The notes under the pieces were generated by a model. The model did no database searches and was not told the origin of the DNA. It saw only the letters and a list, made by a program, of their open reading frames with translations. A DNA stretch of 64,000 nucleotides from Microcoleus sp. FACHB-672 (GTDB lineage: Bacteria > Cyanobacteriota > Cyanobacteriia > Cyanobacteriales > Oscillatoriaceae): positions 1 to 64,000 of the forward strand of contig NZ_JACJOU010000032.1 of assembly GCF_014695725.1 (NCBI RefSeq). Direction: 5' to 3'. This document shows positions 20,944 through 29,847 of this stretch, piece after piece (position 1 is the first letter of the stretch; each line of letters begins with the position of its first letter). Made by a program: the position numbers and the translations under genes.

Positions 20944-23900
20944 ATGAATTACCCACCTTCAAACAACAATTTAAAATCAACAAGTTCCCCTTCTTTGACC
21001 GATTGGAATAATAGTGCCCCTCAGCTTCCTAAAAATTGGTTAAATCGGCTGATCTGTCGCCTAGAAATTAGACAGAAAATTGGCTGGGGGTTTGCTTTAG
21101 CTTTGGGAGTAGCCATTGTCGGAGTAACCACAGGATTTCAGATCAGAAATTACTATGAACAACAAGCTGCAGAGCTTGAAAAGCACACCCAAGAAGAACT
21201 CAATCTTTTGCATCGCTTGCAAACCGCTGTATTGCAGTCACGGGGGCATCAACAACAATTCGCTGCTTTGATAGATAACCCTGATTCTTTGCAAGAAGAA
21301 TATAACCATTTTCTTGAACACGCTACTGAAGTGAATCAGGTGTGGTCGGAGTTCAAATCCTTAGCCGGCAGTGTCAGCTATGCCAACGAGATGCACACTG
21401 AAGAAATCCCAAACTTGTACCAAATTTACGAGGGGGTGCCAGAAGCATATTTTAAGCAAATTGAAGCACTGCTTCGGCAAATAAAATTACCTGTATTAAA
21501 CACGGAAGAAAGCGAGGCGGCACAACAACAGCTCTTAATTTTCAGCAAAAGCCCAACTGCGCTTAAATTTGATGGCATCTCAGACAATCTCACTGAACTT
21601 ATTCAATCCTCTTATGAAGAACAAAAACAAGCAAGGGCGCAGTTAATTGCAGCGCGGAGAACCGGCATAGAGATCAGTGCCGGCAGCCTGATGCTATCAG
21701 TTGTAATAGCAGTAGCCCTAGCTCTCTATACTAGCCGGTTGATCGCTGGCCCCCTAGAAGCTACCACTAAAGTCGCTCGGCGAGTCACTGAGGAAGCGGA
21801 TTTTAGTCTGCAAGCGCCAGTCACCACCCAAGATGAAGTAGGAAAGCTAACGCAGTCTTTAAACCTATTGATCCAGCGCGTCGCCACCTATACCCAGGAA
21901 CTGCAACAGGCACACGCAGAGCGTGATCGCTTCTTTAATTTATCCTTAGAAATGTTTTGCATTACCGGCTTTGATGGCTATTTCAAACAGCTAAATCCGG
22001 CATGGGAAAAAACCCTAGGCTTTACAAATGAAGAACTGTTAGCGAAACCATTAATTGAGCTTGTTCACCCAGAAGATCAAGAAGCAACCTTAGCCCAAAC
22101 ACGGAAGCTCACCCAAGGGATAGACACTATCTCATTTGTGAACCGTTATTTATGTAAGGATGGCTCTTATAAATGGCTGGAGTGGGCATCAAATCCTTCG
22201 GCAGAAGAAAATTTAATTTATACAGTGGCGCGAGACATTACCGAACGCAAGCTTTCAGAAGCAGCCTTGCACGAAAGTGAAAAGCGATTTCGGAATCTGC
22301 TTTCCTATAGTCCCGTTGTCGTTTACAGTTGCAAAGCATCTGGTGATTTTGGCGCAACCTTCATGAGTGAAAATGTGAAGGAACACATGGGTCATGAAGC
22401 GAGAGATTTTCTGGAAGATTCAAGCTTTTGGGCAAATCGAATTCACCCAGAAGACGCCGCCAAAACTTTGGCGGGAATGTCGGATCTGCTGGTAGCCGGC
22501 ACCCAGTTTCTTGAATACCGTTTCCTTTACAAAGATGGGCTGTATCACTGGATTCACGACGAACTGAAACTGGTGCGAGACGAAGCCGGCAACCCATTGG
22601 AGATTGTGGGCTGCTGGCGAGATATTACTGAACGAAAACAGATGGAATCAGCGCTAAAGGAGGCGAATGAAACGTTAGAAATTCGAGTGGAGGAGCGCAC
22701 AGCCCAATTAACAGAAACTATTGAGCAGCGCGAACAAGAAATGGCAGAACGTCGCCGAGCAGAGGAAGCTTTATACAAAGAACAAGAATTCTTAAGCGCA
22801 TTGCTCAATAACTTAGCCGATGGCATTGTTGCGTGTGATGCGAATGGAATTTTAACGCTGTTTAATCGAGCGACACAAGAGTTTCATGGGTTGCCGGCGC
22901 AACCGATCCCAGCAGGAGAATGGGCGCAACACTTTGACTTGTACCTGCCAGACGGGAAGACCCCAATGCAACGGGAAGACATTCCTCTGTTTCGCGCGTT
23001 GCAAGGAGAAGCGGTTCGGGATGTAGAGATGGTAATCGTGCCAAAACAAGGAAAAACGCGCATTCTCCTGGCAAATGGTCAAGCAATTATTGATGCAGCC
23101 GGCAAAAAATTGGGTGCGGTGGTGGCGATGCAGGACATCACAGATCGCAAGGAAGCTGAGGCCGCTTTAAGTAATAGTGAATCGCGGCTTAATAGTATTC
23201 TTAATTCTCTGAAAGATGTGGTGTGGTCAACTGCTTTTGACACCTTCGAGCTGCTTTACATGAACCCAGCAGCAGAAACGCTTTATGGACGCCCACAGTC
23301 TGAATTCTATAGCAAACCGTCTCTGTGGCTGGAGGTCGCTCATCCTGAAGATAGGGACAGAGTTGCCAAATCTGCGAGTGCATGGACAGAAGTTAACAGC
23401 CAAGAATTAGAGTACCGAATTATTCGAGCTGACGGGGACGTGCGGTGGATCAGAAGCAAGAGTTGGCTAATTTATGATGAAGCCGGTGTTGTTGTCCGCA
23501 TGGATGGTTTAACATCCGATATCACCGAGTATAAAGAAGCTCAGAAAGCTCAAGCAAGACTGACGGCAATTCTTGAGGCAACGACTGACTTTGTGGGCGT
23601 TGCTGATGCAAATGGCCGCGCTCTCTATATCAACAAGGCAGGTCGCCAAATGTTGGGATTTGGTGAGGATGAGGATGTTACATCCATGTTTATTCCTGAG
23701 TTCATGGCGGAGTCTGTCCTTGATCTCATTCTTAATGAAGCGTGGCAGACTGTTGTGCGCGACGGGGTGTGGAGTGGCGAGAGCGCTTTGCGACACCGCA
23801 CCGGCAGGGATATTCCTGTCTCGCAGGTTTGGATGAGCCATAAATCAGAAAATGGAGAGGTGGAGTTTTTCTCGACCGTAATCCGCGATATCAGCGAACG

Positions 23901-25215
23901 CAAGCAAGCAGAGGAAGCTTTGCAGCAGCGCGAAGAACAACTACGCCAAATTGTTCAGAATATGCCGGTGATGATGGATACTTTTGACGAACAAGGGAAC
24001 ATTACCGTCTGGAACCGAGAGTGCGAAAGGGTCACGGGTTTCAGTGCCGATGAGATTATTGGCAATTCCAAAGCAATTGAGTTGATGTATCCAGACCCAA
24101 CCTATCGAGCCTCAATGATGACTTTATGGGCAACACTTGGCAATGATTACCGCAGTTGGGAATGGGAGATCACGGCTAAGGATGGGAGTGTTAAAACAAT
24201 TGCCTGGTCGAATATCTCTGAGGAATTTCCAATTCCCGGATGGGCTAGTTGGGGGATTGGGGTGGATGTAACTGAGCGTAAGCAAGCAGAGGAGGCGTTG
24301 CGACACTCTGAAATCCAATCCAGACAACTTGCCCAACAAGCGCAAGAAAAAGCCCAACAGCTAGAGCAAACTTTGCACGAGTTAAAACGCACCCAAGCCC
24401 AGCTCATTCAAACTGAAAAGATGTCTTCTCTCGGTCAGATGGTTGCCGGTGTTGCTCACGAAATTAACAATCCTGTCAACTTTATTCACGGCAATCTTTC
24501 TCACCTGAATGACTATACGACTGATTTAGTGGATTTAATCAAGCTTTATAGCCAGTGTTATCCTAACCCGTTGCCGGCTGTGCAAGATTTACTTTCTCAA
24601 CTTGATTTGGAATTTGTGACTGAGGATCTGCCGAAGGTTTTATCCTCTATGAAAATGGGAACTGAACGCATTCGCGATATTGTGCTGTCCCTGCGGAATT
24701 TCTCTCGGCTTGATGAAGCGGAGATGAAAGAAGTCAATATTCATGAGGGTTTGGATAATACGCTGCTGATTTTGCAAAACCGGCTAAAAGCGAAATCTGA
24801 CCAACCTGAGATTCAAATCATTAAAGAGTATGGGGAATTACCTTTAGTTGATTGCTTTGCCGGCCAACTGAATCAAGTGTTTATGAATCTGCTGGCTAAT
24901 GCTATTGATGCTTTAGAAACTGTTCCCTTGCCTCGCACGATTACGATCCGCACTTATGCAGTCCCATCTGCTTCAGGAGGGGGGAACCGGGCTGTAATCT
25001 GCATTGCTGACAATGGCAGCGGCATGAGTAAAGAAACCCAAGAACGGTTATTTGACCCGTTTTTTACGACGAAGCCGATAGGTAAAGGCACAGGATTGGG
25101 ATTATCTATCAGTTATCAAATTGTGGTGGAAAAACATGGTGGTACTTTAACTTGCAGTTCACAGCCCGGTAAAGGGACTGAGTTTTCTATTGAGATTCCG
25201 ATTCATCAAGTCTAG
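20944..25215 (+). CDS. Membrane-bound histidine kinase: sensor loop, HAMP, 6 PAS, HisKA, HATPase
   Basis: The 1423-aa protein has a cytoplasmic basic N-terminus and a first membrane helix (about residues 47-67, GFALALGVAIVGVTTGF). A 170-residue helical extracytoplasmic sensor region follows, then a second helix (about 243-262) and a HAMP linker (ISAGPLEATTKVARRVTE-like). Six PAS/PAC units run to about residue 1135. A coiled coil with TLEIRVEERTAQLTETI lies between PAS 2 and PAS 3. The kinase core carries AGVAHEINNPVNF with H1172, FMNLLANAIDAL, IADNGSGMS and GKGTGLGLSISY. It lacks a receiver domain. Five of its PAS units are collinear with units 1, 5, 8, 9 and 12 of the upstream kinase. Confidence 0.95.
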   Translation: MNYPPSNNNLKSTSSPSLTDWNNSAPQLPKNWLNRLICRLEIRQKIGWGFALALGVAIVGVTTGFQIRNYYEQQAAELEKHTQEELNLLHRLQTAVLQSRGHQQQFAALIDNPDSLQEEYNHFLEHATEVNQVWSEFKSLAGSVSYANEMHTEEIPNLYQIYEGVPEAYFKQIEALLRQIKLPVLNTEESEAAQQQLLIFSKSPTALKFDGISDNLTELIQSSYEEQKQARAQLIAARRTGIEISAGSLMLSVVIAVALALYTSRLIAGPLEATTKVARRVTEEADFSLQAPVTTQDEVGKLTQSLNLLIQRVATYTQELQQAHAERDRFFNLSLEMFCITGFDGYFKQLNPAWEKTLGFTNEELLAKPLIELVHPEDQEATLAQTRKLTQGIDTISFVNRYLCKDGSYKWLEWASNPSAEENLIYTVARDITERKLSEAALHESEKRFRNLLSYSPVVVYSCKASGDFGATFMSENVKEHMGHEARDFLEDSSFWANRIHPEDAAKTLAGMSDLLVAGTQFLEYRFLYKDGLYHWIHDELKLVRDEAGNPLEIVGCWRDITERKQMESALKEANETLEIRVEERTAQLTETIEQREQEMAERRRAEEALYKEQEFLSALLNNLADGIVACDANGILTLFNRATQEFHGLPAQPIPAGEWAQHFDLYLPDGKTPMQREDIPLFRALQGEAVRDVEMVIVPKQGKTRILLANGQAIIDAAGKKLGAVVAMQDITDRKEAEAALSNSESRLNSILNSLKDVVWSTAFDTFELLYMNPAAETLYGRPQSEFYSKPSLWLEVAHPEDRDRVAKSASAWTEVNSQELEYRIIRADGDVRWIRSKSWLIYDEAGVVVRMDGLTSDITEYKEAQKAQARLTAILEATTDFVGVADANGRALYINKAGRQMLGFGEDEDVTSMFIPEFMAESVLDLILNEAWQTVVRDGVWSGESALRHRTGRDIPVSQVWMSHKSENGEVEFFSTVIRDISERKQAEEALQQREEQLRQIVQNMPVMMDTFDEQGNITVWNRECERVTGFSADEIIGNSKAIELMYPDPTYRASMMTLWATLGNDYRSWEWEITAKDGSVKTIAWSNISEEFPIPGWASWGIGVDVTERKQAEEALRHSEIQSRQLAQQAQEKAQQLEQTLHELKRTQAQLIQTEKMSSLGQMVAGVAHEINNPVNFIHGNLSHLNDYTTDLVDLIKLYSQCYPNPLPAVQDLLSQLDLEFVTEDLPKVLSSMKMGTERIRDIVLSLRNFSRLDEAEMKEVNIHEGLDNTLLILQNRLKAKSDQPEIQIIKEYGELPLVDCFAGQLNQVFMNLLANAIDALETVPLPRTITIRTYAVPSASGGGNRAVICIADNGSGMSKETQERLFDPFFTTKPIGKGTGLGLSISYQIVVEKHGGTLTCSSQPGKGTEFSIEIPIHQV

Positions 25216-25262: not shown

Positions 25263-26024
25263 TTATTCCACGCTTAAATTCAGCCGGCTGAGAAAGCCAC
25301 GCAAACGCTCACTTTGGGGATTTGTCAAAACTTCTCGCGCAGAACCCGACTCTTCTACTTTACCCTGATGTAAAAATAACACTCGATGCGCGACTTCCCG
25401 CGCAAATAGCATTTCATGGGTGACAACAACCATTGTCATTCCCTCTTCGGCAAGTTGTTGCATAACTCGCAACACTTCTCCCACTAATTCCGGATCAAGG
25501 GCGCTGGTGGGTTCATCAAATAGCATCACTTTGGGATTTACACACAAGCTGCGGGCGATGGCAACTCGCTGTTTTTGTCCTCCGGAAAGTTGTTGGGGAT
25601 AGGCTTGGGCTTTTTCGGAAAGTCCAACTTTTTCTAAATAAAATCTTGCTTGCTGAATGCTTTCCTGACGCGATTTTCCTAAAACTTTTTGTGGGGCTAA
25701 AGTTAGATTTTCTAATACACTTAAATGCGGAAAAAGATTGAATTGCTGAAAAACCATCCCCACCTCAGTTCGTAACTGTCGTAGTCGGGTCCGGCTGAGG
25801 TTTGGGGGAGACAAATCGATGCCGCTAACAACCAACTGCCCGCCGTCAATTTTTTCCAGCCGGTTGAAACATCGCAGCAGGGTACTTTTGCCACAGCCCG
25901 AGGAACCGATGACGGCAACAACTTCACCTTGATTAACCGAGCCGGTGATTCCTTGCAACACTTGCAGAGAACCAAAGTTTTTCTGAAGATTTTCAAACGT
26001 GATCGTGGGAGTGGGATTTTCCAT
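25263..26024 (-). CDS. Polar amino-acid ABC transporter ATPase (GlnQ type)
   Basis: The 253-aa ATPase has Walker A GSSGCGKST, the Q loop MVFQQFNLFPHLSVLENL, the signature LSGGQKQRVAIARSL, Walker B VMLFDEPTSALDPE, and the H-loop VVVTHEM. These and the length fit the GlnQ/HisP polar amino-acid subfamily. It is divergent from the fused binding protein-permease at 26188, with 163 bases between them, so both are probably driven from one control region. Substrate choice lies with the partner protein. It is convergent with the membrane-bound kinase gene. Confidence 0.93.
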   Translation of the reverse strand: MENPTPTITFENLQKNFGSLQVLQGITGSVNQGEVVAVIGSSGCGKSTLLRCFNRLEKIDGGQLVVSGIDLSPPNLSRTRLRQLRTEVGMVFQQFNLFPHLSVLENLTLAPQKVLGKSRQESIQQARFYLEKVGLSEKAQAYPQQLSGGQKQRVAIARSLCVNPKVMLFDEPTSALDPELVGEVLRVMQQLAEEGMTMVVVTHEMLFAREVAHRVLFLHQGKVEESGSAREVLTNPQSERLRGFLSRLNLSVE

Positions 26025-26187: not shown

Positions 26188-27744
26188 ATGCCAAAAGAGA
26201 ATTTATCGTTACCCCACCGGCACTTCCCTGGTTTGCCGGCAAAATCGCCAAAGTTGCTGCGCCGGCTCGCATTGGGTTTAAGCTGTCTACTGCTACTCGC
26301 CGGCTGCGTGTTAAACGCCAACCTTGCCGACACCCCCAAAACCCTCAAAGTTGCCACCGGCGCAGATTACCCTCCTTTTGAGTTTCAAGCACAAAATGGC
26401 GAATTAACCGGCTTTGATATTGATTTAATCCAAGCTATCGGCAAAGCCACGAACTTTAAAATTGAATTTCAAAGTATGCCCTTTGATGGCATTATTCCGG
26501 CATTGCAGTCAAGAACCGTGGATGCTGCTATTTGCGCCATGACGATTACGGCTGAACGCACTAAAACAATTTCTTTCTCCCGACCTTATTTTAAAGCCGG
26601 CATCGCAATTGCCATCAAAACGAACAACACAACTATTACTTCGTTTGATAGCCTCAAAAATAAAACAATTGCTGTGCAAATCGGCACAACCGGCGCTCAA
26701 AAAGCCAAAGAAATTCCTGGTGCAAAACTGCGAACTTATGATTCCGCCCCCCTGGCATTGCAAGCCTTGGTTAACGGGAATGTAGATGCTGCAATTAGTG
26801 ATGCCCCCGTCACCCTTTACGCCATCAAACAAAGTAATCTCAAAGGCATCAAAATTATCGACCAATTGATTACAGAAGAATTCTTTGGCATTCCGGCACC
26901 TAAAAATTCTCCTTCTCTCGCCGCTATTAATAAAGGTTTAACAGCGGTTTTGGATAATGGTACCTACACCAAAATTTATCAAAAATGGTTTAATGTTCAG
27001 CCACCGGAACTACCGACAACCTTACCTTTTTTAAACTCAGACAATGCTGATATCGACACCGGGGGTTCAACCGGCAGGATCGTCGCCGCCTTGCCCAACT
27101 TGCTGCGAGGCGCATTAATTACGTTGCAACTAACGGCTTTCTCCCTATTTTTAGGGGCGATCGCAGGTTCTTTGATTGCCCTCGCCCGTCTTTCTTCCTA
27201 TCGCCCTTTGAGTGTGCTGGCGCGGGTGTATATCGACTTTTTCCGAGGAACACCCTTGCTGGTGCAGATTTTTATGATTTATTATGGCTTGCCGGCGCTG
27301 GTGCAAGAGTTGGGATTGAGCTTTACCCTAGATCGCCTGCCGGCAGCCGTGATGGCGCTGAGTCTTAATAGTGCTGCTTACATTGCAGAAATTGTCCGCG
27401 CCGGCATTCAATCGATAGAACCCGGACAAGCCGAGGCTGCACAATCTTTAGGATTAGGGCCGGTGCAAACGCTGCAATATATTATATTTCCTCAAGCGTT
27501 GCGGCGAATGATCCCACCTTTAGGCAATGAATTCATCACCTTGCTTAAAGATACTAGCTTAGTTGCTGTGATCGGTTTTGAAGATTTATTCCGTCGCGGA
27601 CAGTTAATTGTGGCAGAAAATTATCGCACGTTTGAGATATACACGGCTGTCGCCTTAATTTACTTAGCTCTTACCCTCTTGTCCTCTCAAGCTTTTAGCT
27701 GGTTAGAACGTTGGATGAACCCTGTTAAACGGCAATTTAAATGA
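26188..27744 (+). CDS. Fused periplasmic binding protein and permease of a polar amino-acid ABC transporter
   Basis: The 518-aa protein has a lipoprotein-type signal ending in LLLLAGC near residue 40. A type 3 solute-binding domain follows (about 50-270; TLKVATGADYPPFEFQ, GFDIDLIQAI, AAISDAPVTLYAI). After a linker comes a HisM/GlnP permease (about 295-515) with several membrane helices and the ATPase-contacting EAA loop (EPGQAEAAQSLGLGP). Binding protein and permease are often separate; the fusion tethers them. With the divergent ATPase it should form a complete importer for glutamine, glutamate or another polar amino acid. The exact substrate is not predictable here. Confidence 0.93.
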   Translation: MPKENLSLPHRHFPGLPAKSPKLLRRLALGLSCLLLLAGCVLNANLADTPKTLKVATGADYPPFEFQAQNGELTGFDIDLIQAIGKATNFKIEFQSMPFDGIIPALQSRTVDAAICAMTITAERTKTISFSRPYFKAGIAIAIKTNNTTITSFDSLKNKTIAVQIGTTGAQKAKEIPGAKLRTYDSAPLALQALVNGNVDAAISDAPVTLYAIKQSNLKGIKIIDQLITEEFFGIPAPKNSPSLAAINKGLTAVLDNGTYTKIYQKWFNVQPPELPTTLPFLNSDNADIDTGGSTGRIVAALPNLLRGALITLQLTAFSLFLGAIAGSLIALARLSSYRPLSVLARVYIDFFRGTPLLVQIFMIYYGLPALVQELGLSFTLDRLPAAVMALSLNSAAYIAEIVRAGIQSIEPGQAEAAQSLGLGPVQTLQYIIFPQALRRMIPPLGNEFITLLKDTSLVAVIGFEDLFRRGQLIVAENYRTFEIYTAVALIYLALTLLSSQAFSWLERWMNPVKRQFK

Positions 27745-28076: not shown

Positions 28077-28842
28077 GACTTAGTTTGCCTTGCTTGAGCG
28101 ATGACCAGAGCCAGCCGGCTATATACTCCTCCCTGCTTAAACAGGCGGGCGAAAAGGTGAAATTATCAGGACATAAGTAACTTCTAAAAGCAGGCATCGG
28201 CAAGAGCAATAATGACAAAATTTACTGTCAAACTTGGAACTTCCCTAGGCCACCAGCTCCAGTCCTAATTTGCTCGGTCAGTCCTCACAATAAATGAGGC
28301 AAAACTAAACCAGAAAAAGGCAAAAATAAAACTAGGAAGTTTTTGTTTTTGTCTTTTATCCTGACTTTTAAATTCTCATTGTTTTATGCAAACTAAGTGC
28401 AAAATTATTTCTCCGTAACGGGTGATCGGGCAATGCCGGCCAATCAGGTACGGCCACGGATGCAATAAAGACGATCCAACGATAAAATCGTGGGGATCAT
28501 TAGCCGGTCTAACCCCCAATATGAACGCGGTTGTCGAGACGGGTGCTCTACTCAACAAAATAGTTCCACTATTGAACAAACTCCTGTATCGCTTAGCCTT
28601 AGGCAAATGCAATCAGAATTGCTCACACAATTTTAGTTGCACTGGCTCAAGGGCAGGAGTAGGGTGCATCACGACAAACACCTTGGGGAAGCCGAAAAGT
28701 AGAACCTAGGCGGGTTTTTGCAGCGGATTTTGCACCGGCAAATCCTCCCAATCGCAACCCCAATCTAATGGCTCACAAAAAAATTCAGAGCCGCCTTTGG
28801 TTCGCTAACGCGCTAGAAAAATGGGCCATCTAGAGGTAAGCG
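28077..28842. other. Long intergenic region with RNA-like structures
   Basis: About 765 bases with no supported protein gene. AACTTCCCTAG (28238-28248) pairs with CTAGGAAGTT (28332-28341), which is followed by TTTGTTTTTGTCTTTT. CCTCA and TGAGG form a small hairpin between them, so an RNA ending near 28357 is conceivable. Further on, GATCC..ACGAT AAA ATCGT..GGATC (28473-28498) is a compact two-part hairpin. A 95-codon plus frame (28422-28709) and a 78-codon minus frame lack motifs and ribosome-binding sites and are not called. Confidence 0.4.
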
Positions 28843-29847
28843 ATGTACACAGATCGACAATCATTCAGACACTGGAACGTCAGTAGTTCTGACAATGAGT
28901 TGATTCAACAGTGGGTGGGGTGCCAATCTCCCCGCCGACGGCGGTCTTCCTGGCGCTTGGCCAAACAGTTCCAAGCTTTTGCCGGCAAACCCTTCGCCCA
29001 AGTCACAAGAGCCGATATTCGGGCGTTTGGAACCGCTAAAGCGTCTGAGGGCGTTTCCCCCCAAAAAGTTGCACAGATGCTGTTGGGGATTAAGTCTTTG
29101 TTCACCTTGGGATACGAACTCGGTGTGCTGCCAGTGAACATCCCCCCAGAACGTTGGCCAAAAATTAGGCTCAAAAGGCGTTCTCGTCGTAAGAAACCTG
29201 CTCGGAAGTGGGGATTCGGTTTGGGGTTGAGTGTTTGTTGTTTAGCGCTGATAGTCCCAGGATTTCTTAACAACGTACAATCTACCCAACCGGCATTGAG
29301 TCTCACGGCGCGGGATTGGGACGAACCCAAAGTGTCGGGACAGTTAAGTGATTTATACGCCCAAACCGCAACACCCCTCAAAAGCGCTAACATCAAAGCT
29401 TTTCTAGACCTGATCGCTGTAGCGGAAGGAACGGCGGGATCAGATGGCTACCGCACTCAATTCACCGGCGTTAAATTTGATAGTTTCCGCACCCATCCTG
29501 ATCAGGTGAACTGCGCCTACTCTAACGGGCGGCGCATTTGCTCAAGTGCGGCGGGGAGATATCAATTTTTAAAGCCAACGTTTGACCGGCTCAAACGAAA
29601 ATTAGGATTGCCAGATTTTGGCCCCCGATCTCAAGATTTGGCAGCGATTGAATTAATTCGAGAACAAGGCGCGCTGGCAGATATTGAAGCTGGCAACATT
29701 AAAGCCGCTTTACGCAAAATCTCAGCCATTTGGGTTCATGTTGAAGGTGCCGGTTATGGGCAACCCGAACACCCTTTAGATAAGTTAGAGGCGATGTACT
29801 GGCGGGAGCGAAAAAAATATGAATCTCCCTCACAGGCACAGAAATAG
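28843..29847 (+). CDS. Chimeric protein: integrase SAM-like domain, membrane helix, lambda-R-type endolysin domain
   Basis: This 334-aa protein joins three parts. Residues about 18-110 look like the SAM-like core-binding domain of tyrosine recombinases (LAKQFQAFAGKPFAQVTRADIRAF, then a second helical pair). The recombinase catalytic domain is absent. A strongly basic stretch (KRRSRRKKPARK) and one hydrophobic helix (123-142) follow. Residues about 183-325 match the lambda R/GH104 lytic transglycosylase. This includes IKAFLDLIAVAEGT with the presumed catalytic E195, SSAAGRYQFLKPTFDRL, and VEGAGYGQPEHPLDKLEA. The positive charges suggest the DNA-binding-like part is cytoplasmic and the murein-cleaving part periplasmic. 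Its role is unknown. Confidence 0.8.
   Translation: MYTDRQSFRHWNVSSSDNELIQQWVGCQSPRRRRSSWRLAKQFQAFAGKPFAQVTRADIRAFGTAKASEGVSPQKVAQMLLGIKSLFTLGYELGVLPVNIPPERWPKIRLKRRSRRKKPARKWGFGLGLSVCCLALIVPGFLNNVQSTQPALSLTARDWDEPKVSGQLSDLYAQTATPLKSANIKAFLDLIAVAEGTAGSDGYRTQFTGVKFDSFRTHPDQVNCAYSNGRRICSSAAGRYQFLKPTFDRLKRKLGLPDFGPRSQDLAAIELIREQGALADIEAGNIKAALRKISAIWVHVEGAGYGQPEHPLDKLEAMYWRERKKYESPSQAQK

Follow-up and report, generated by a model that had tools for sequence, protein, structure and literature searches.

A recombinase-type core-binding domain joined through a predicted membrane helix to a lambda-R-type murein hydrolase in Microcoleus and other cyanobacteria

In the 64,000-nucleotide stretch of Microcoleus sp. 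FACHB-672 DNA analyzed here (the window), a 334-aa open reading frame (28843..29847, + strand; ATG at 28843, stop codon ending at 29847) encodes a single protein in which a tyrosine-recombinase-type core-binding (CB) domain is followed by a predicted membrane helix and then by a murein hydrolase of the lambda-R type (GH104); full-length homologs exist. Our preferred reading, to which we assign a probability of about 0.55, is that of a chromosomal lytic transglycosylase anchored in the inner membrane, whose repurposed CB domain serves on the cytoplasmic side as a handle for positioning or regulation. The GH104 part and the N-terminal fold are each ordinary; what is new to us is that they are combined across a membrane, as seen in 12 genera. 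Among the best titles in the open-access literature there was no prior description of a layout of recombinase CB domain, membrane segment and GH104.

Results

The CB domain, a SAM-like domain, spans residues 14–110 (28882..29172, + strand) as judged from Pfam, profiles and AlphaFold. Against Pfam Phage_int_SAM_4 the whole window protein gave an E value of 4e-4 and 21.2 bits, and its CB part alone 23.9 bits; both scores lie under the curated cut-off of 27, and the window protein on its own therefore misses the curated Pfam score. Its relatives score better, which removes the doubt over the assignment: the homolog L007 exceeds the cut-off with 30.9 bits, and among 26 non-redundant CB domains, 22 give E ≤ 0.1, with 9.8e-9 as the best value. 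A profile built from the 26 CB domains retrieved intact tyrosine recombinases in other cyanobacterial genomes, with E values down to 2.5e-20. An HxxR motif was present in 26 of the 29 listed recombinase frames found in this way, and both of the two frames that were scanned contained the Phage_integrase catalytic domain. Solved recombinases were matched only weakly by the profile at the sequence level (XerA, E 0.0059).

Structure prediction points to the same domain type. For residues 1–118, AlphaFold placed helices at 17–27, 30–47, 56–68 and 73–93, with a block-mean pLDDT of 87–94 across residues 21–90, from an alignment that included recombinase rows. When the full-length protein was modeled from an alignment without recombinase rows, four helices were again obtained (15–25, 30–47, 56–67 and 73–92), at lower confidence. 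All 13 best PDB matches in a fold search with the 1–118 model were recombinases or integrase domains, none of them at E ≤ 0.001 (best 0.047, probability 1.00). Profiles and models together confirm the N-terminal part as a CB domain of tyrosine-recombinase type with four predicted helices. A recombinase catalytic domain does not follow: the window protein has no Phage_integrase match at E ≤ 1, and the position of the Arg/His/Tyr domain is taken, with the frame running on into the membrane helix and the hydrolase. Homology to the recombinases stops between their Pfam-placed CB and catalytic domains.

Residues that are conserved in recombinases and residues of the fold core have fared differently in the fused proteins. 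Position 32 is Thr in 18 and Ser in two of 20 recombinases, against no Thr and 14 Ser in 42 fused proteins; position 36 is Tyr in 20/20 recombinases and in 1/42 fused proteins; position 75 is Thr (14) or Ser (6) in the recombinases, against three Thr and six Ser in the 42. The window protein carries Arg, Ser and Lys at these three positions, and Trp occupies position 37 in 33 of the 42 fused proteins. From the structures of Cre and Xer proteins, we take the lost positions to be ones that touch the DNA backbone in recombinases. Kept, in contrast, are W24, F43 and K49 (42/42 each), F46 and D58 (41/42 each), K84 (36/42), and S85 and L86 (42/42). Alignment and model thus suggest that the core of the CB fold is retained while the recombinase-conserved residues are mostly lost. 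Over the columns common to both groups (window residues 17–100), the net charge of 26 fused CB domains ranges from −2 to +11 with a mean of +8.0, compared with −2 to +7 and a mean of +3.3 in the 20 recombinases.

The CB domain is followed by a basic juxtamembrane stretch (residues 111–123; 29173..29211, + strand), evident from sequence and charge, and by a predicted membrane helix whose best hydropathy window covers residues 125–143 (29215..29271, + strand; Kyte–Doolittle mean 2.12 over 19 residues). The charge is +10 over the 15 residues preceding the helix and +1 over the 15 that follow, and it is higher before than after the helix in 25 of 26 relatives, with one tie. Hydropathy of the helix falls below 1.6 in 13 of the 26 relatives; since 12 of these 13 belong to genus g5, we judge the helix to be weak in this genus. 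AlphaFold gave no confident helix at the membrane segment, with pLDDT < 50 over residues 107–165. On charge and hydropathy, the predicted topology is that of a cytoplasmic CB domain and a periplasmic hydrolase. Alignment and dN/dS delimit a variable linker to the hydrolase (residues 144–180; 29272..29382, + strand), and dN/dS is highest in the linker and membrane region in three of five groups.

By sequence and fold, the C-terminal part (residues 181–326; 29383..29820, + strand) is a GH104 lytic transglycosylase domain, from which its activity is predicted. Lambda lysozyme is the best match both by sequence (E 2.3e-24) and by fold (E 6e-10, TM 0.85 on target). E195 (29425..29427, + strand) is the presumed catalytic Glu: it corresponds in the alignment to E19, which we take to be the catalytic Glu of lambda R, and occurs in 42 of 42 distinct proteins. 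A beta hairpin (29512..29541, + strand), located by conservation and the model, carries C224 and C233, which are likewise present in 42/42. From residue 150 on, 41 of the 42 proteins have exactly two Cys and the remaining one has four, and the model sets C224 and C233 on the adjacent strands 223–227 and 230–234. A structural disulfide between them is therefore possible from the model and, if formed, would fit a periplasmic location of the hydrolase. The catalytic domain is thus alike to that of phage lambda endolysin R (GH104; PDB 1AM7, 3D3D), with the catalytic Glu aligned. Lambda R is soluble and stays cytoplasmic until holin release; the window protein differs from it by a predicted membrane anchor, two invariant Cys and an additional N-terminal domain.

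A preliminary description of this frame, made from its letters, had read it as an integrase-type CB domain that lost the recombinase catalytic half and is linked, by a membrane segment with a basic stretch on the CB side, to a lambda-R-like hydrolase with intact E195. This reading was borne out by the analyses above: an integrase-like fold is present within residues 18–110 in the AlphaFold models and the PDB matches, Phage_int_SAM_4 is recognized in relatives, the profile leads to recombinases, and the charge asymmetry, the catalytic Glu and the missing Phage_integrase match are all as described. The architecture is also found in relatives, in 56 of 388 genomes of the order. These carry the full layout in differing neighborhoods, and the fused layout is therefore no assembly artifact.

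A full-length profile matched 74 of the 388 genomes at E ≤ 1e-45, and the 56 that cover both ends, a row count in which the rows of G003 and G006 extend a codon or two beyond their stop, represent 12 genera in three families. In the window's own family (f1), all eight genomes have one place each that covers both ends. One fragmented genome, G007 (L009:1069-2208, + strand, and L066), has a C-terminus that diverges after about residue 311 in a frameshift-like manner. In family f2, 43 of 61 genomes match at E ≤ 1e-60, 41 of them including the CB part; 18 genomes have no match at this threshold, among them every genome of genus g63 (10) and of g223 (two). The f2 genus g5 has the layout in 27 of 29 genomes by row count. 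Median dN/dS of the CB part was 0.10 in g1 (one pair), 0.29 in g5 (187 pairs), 0.26 in g194 (six pairs), 0.52 in g2 (one pair) and 0.90 in g235 (two pairs), with corresponding hydrolase values of 0.11, 0.15, 0.18, 0.21 and 0.03. The CB domain is hence constrained in g1, g5 and g194 and weakly so in g2, and constraint is not evident in g235. It is about as constrained as the hydrolase in g1 and more loosely so in the other four groups, where it must be noted that three of the five groups rest on one or two CB pairs.

In its own genome the 334-aa protein has no second match at E ≤ 0.001, and the GH104 profile found one additional, weaker place besides the frame. The one named relative in the genome collection, with 93% identity along its full length, comes from a cyanobacterial genome that was assembled from a metagenome and deposited under the name Microcoleus vaginatus WJT46-NPBG5. 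On the 5′ side, the end of a long frame containing transporter domains lies 1.1 kb away; on the 3′ side, a tRNA-Lys and an epimerase-like gene lie on the opposite strand. The neighboring genes that were scanned comprise an ABC-transporter pair, the epimerase-like gene and a capsule-synthesis-like gene. Positions 26188–27744 (+ strand) hold family-3 solute-binding and ABC-transporter permease domains within a single frame, and an ABC ATPase is encoded at 25263–26024 on the strand opposite to it. The 1423-residue frame at 20944–25215 (+ strand) resembles a multi-PAS sensor histidine kinase by eye. A putative frame of 95 residues with a GTG start is located upstream at 28422–28709 (+ strand) and has a 103-residue counterpart in a congener. 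The region directly upstream (28701..28842, + strand) shares 94–98% identity with two congeners over the 100-base blocks containing it, a conservation similar to that of the coding region, and is possibly a promoter or leader. Searches for regulatory RNA near the frame with Rfam returned the tRNA-Lys and two matches far below gathering scores. Conserved neighbors of the architecture, which the preliminary description had suggested surveying, did not emerge: across 21 loci compared, no neighbor or operon partner was common to several genera. Since neighborhoods vary between genera, the frame seems to stand alone, with no fixed gene neighborhood.

We traced the source of the CB domain in plasmid, phage and viral-contig collections. 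A search of 72,556 plasmid records with the N-terminal part gave 12 matches at E ≤ 0.01. Ten of these come from cyanobacteria, on records 10 to 77 kb long; the other two are labeled Bacillus safensis (without annotation) and Rubrobacter. Eleven of the 12 fall inside an annotated recombinase or integrase, and the Bacillus-labeled match lies in a frame of 309 residues that resembles a recombinase and contains an HxxR motif. The latter record, L230 (NZ_CP015609.1, labeled Bacillus safensis U14-5 plasmid unnamed2), is 22 kb long; its recombinase is the closest plasmid match to the window CB domain (39% over 98 residues), and its label or transfer history merits checking. Among 50,697 phage records there was no match to the CB half at E ≤ 0.1. 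Contigs classed as viral in IMG/VR hold related recombinases, with three loci in one search and eight in another, both with recombinase domains as queries, and two contigs common to the two. The named relatives of the CB domain hence point to plasmids; a phage or provirus source for the CB half alone is conceivable in view of these IMG/VR recombinases and a weak integrase match of the window protein in PHROGs (E 0.017).

The recombinase relatives look Xer-like: one of them, L021, matches archaeal Xer, E. coli XerD and XerA over most of its length, and a distinction between simple and arm-binding recombinases is drawn in PMC8138268. The Xer-like, simple recombinases of cyanobacterial plasmids, as in Gloeothece citriformis PCC 7424 and Cyanobacterium sp. 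Dongsha4, share the CB domain with residues 14–110 of the window protein; the latter differs from them in having no catalytic domain, in the loss of most of the conserved T/S, Y and T/S residues and in being more basic. In a tree with the 20 recombinases, all 26 fused CB domains fall into one group (support 97/94). In the GH104 tree, support for a single origin is weak (77/67; recovered in 74% of bootstrap trees); the tree agrees with one fusion event but does not prove it. None of 553 matched phage records and none of 116 matched plasmid records covered ≥80% of the query, and the best 80 of 452 viral-contig relatives align within residues 105–333 only, that is, without the CB part. On these grounds a phage origin of the whole fusion is not supported. 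Nor is the earlier view of a domesticated phage fusion supported in the form given: hydrolases of this type are common among phages, but for the CB half there are 12 matches in plasmid records and none in the phage records.

GH104 domains were found in 262 of the 388 genomes at E ≤ 1e-10, and some have other partners. Two genomes, from two different further families, encode a fusion that starts with an IS240-type transposase N-terminal half and continues with a basic stretch, a hydrophobic segment and the same hydrolase (L018:1492-2628 and L019:1501-2622, both − strand; Pfam DDE_Tnp_IS240 with E 3.5e-12 and 5.9e-11). Hydropathy of the segment is 2.03 and 1.51, and the charges before and after it are +7/+1 and +3/0, respectively. 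This fusion, confined to 2/388 genomes of the order, is a parallel design whose N-terminal DNA-enzyme half is unrelated to the CB domain; judged by the IS6/IS240 motif, its transposase part presumably is catalytically broken. Two further proteins, L012 and L013, show a basic stretch, a hydrophobic helix (2.6) and GH104 as in the window protein. However, only about 50 residues separate their first Met from the helix, which is too short for a CB domain, and a Pfam scan of L012 gave nothing at E ≤ 1. We also observed a caspase domain (Peptidase_C14) with GH104 and Peptidase_M23 in one frame (L052:520-2403, + strand), which combines two wall-cutting domains. In another single frame (L059:28-1980, + strand), AAA_35, a hydrophobic segment (Kyte–Doolittle 2.5) and GH104 follow each other, apparently an NTPase wired across the membrane to a murein hydrolase. 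Further GH104 partners are TPR repeats and, by eye, phage-tail-like proteins. Ten further regions, inspected by eye over their 40 N-terminal residues and the 120 residues that precede the hydrolase, contained no more recognizable DNA-binding GH104 fusions.

Discussion

As we picture it, the CB domain of an Xer-like (arm-domain-free) recombinase was separated from the catalytic half close to the interdomain linker and joined to the front of a membrane-anchored lambda-R-type hydrolase that would face the periplasm. The CB domain would reside in the cytoplasm, its role in site-specific recombination gone, and could localize or switch the wall-cutting domain, either via a protein partner or via sequence-non-specific DNA binding near the membrane. 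The enzyme might then open peptidoglycan locally, most plausibly in growth, division or trichome (septal) remodeling. In Anabaena, septal nanopores depend on AmiC-type amidases, as stated in PMC10653889, and by analogy a septal or trichome remodeling role of the window protein is plausible. No sign of a part in DNA uptake or release, which the preliminary description had named as examples, came up in the analyses.

What the handle binds is the point at which the readings part. Binding of a recombination site is unlikely, because the recombinase-conserved residues are mostly lost and the catalytic domain wholly so; non-specific DNA binding, lipid binding and protein binding are each possible. 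The CB domain may be a protein–protein interaction or dimerization module with no nucleic-acid role, an alternative that we regard as tentative yet well worth keeping in sight. Loss of the recombinase-conserved residues next to a preserved core (W24, F43, F46, S85, L86) and the relaxed constraint on the CB domain in some groups speak for such a module, although a net positive charge above that of the recombinases, and the lack of a nearby partner gene common across genera, do not. If the CB domain instead still binds DNA, the protein would be a DNA-tethered murein hydrolase that couples the position of the nucleoid, or of incoming DNA, to wall cutting. The retained fold, the more basic character of the fused domains and the second DNA-enzyme half, the IS240 transposase N-terminus on the same hydrolase in two other genomes, argue for this, whereas the residues at positions 32, 36 and 75 are mostly lost and a basic surface beside the membrane could equally bind phospholipid head groups; on balance we hold DNA tethering to be rather unlikely. 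More speculative still, and in our eyes doubtful, is the broader idea that on at least two occasions in cyanobacteria the DNA-binding half of a mobile-element enzyme, once a Xer-like CB domain and once the IS240 transposase N-terminus, was linked across the inner membrane to a murein hydrolase, so that DNA on the cytoplasmic side places or triggers cutting.

Two readings in which the enzyme lyses the cell carry less weight. A defense or suicide device, in which recognition of mobile DNA by the cytoplasmic domain would lead the hydrolase to lyse the cell, is brought to mind by the other cyanobacterial GH104 domains joined to AAA_35 with a hydrophobic segment and to caspase with M23, the latter protein matching the PADLOC caspase model at 3.1e-10. 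However, the occurrence in 8/8 genomes of f1 and 27/29 of g5 is unlike the patchy spread expected for defense genes, and we consider such a device improbable. Membership in a defense system was rejected, as the window protein matches no PADLOC family at E ≤ 0.01. A SAR-endolysin-like lysis gene of a prophage remnant would share the lambda-R-type enzyme and, in genus g5, a weakly hydrophobic helix. SAR endolysins have a short N-terminal signal-anchor that is able to exit the membrane; in the window protein, by contrast, a folded domain of about 80–90 residues precedes the helix, and release from the membrane in the manner of SAR endolysins would hence not be expected. Moreover, coverage of the protein stays below 80% in every matched phage record, and the scanned neighbors are the transporter pair and the epimerase-like and capsule-synthesis-like genes, which together make a prophage lysis gene hardly credible. 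We thus return to the membrane-anchored lytic transglycosylase with a repurposed CB handle as the reading that we favor. Against it weigh the low hydropathy of the helix in 13 of 26 relatives and its unconfident model, the weak CB constraint in g2 and g235, the weakly supported GH104 tree, neighborhoods that offer no functional clue across genera, and the 18 f2 genomes that have no match at the threshold.

In general, murein hydrolases need to be confined in space and time. A recombinase-derived cytoplasmic module that is fused to such an enzyme through the membrane would offer a route by which the inside of the cell controls wall cutting outside. It would also be a case of exaptation, with the DNA-binding domain of a recombinase put to use in the absence of the catalytic half. 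Were the CB domain still able to bind DNA, the position of DNA would be tied to the opening of the cell wall.
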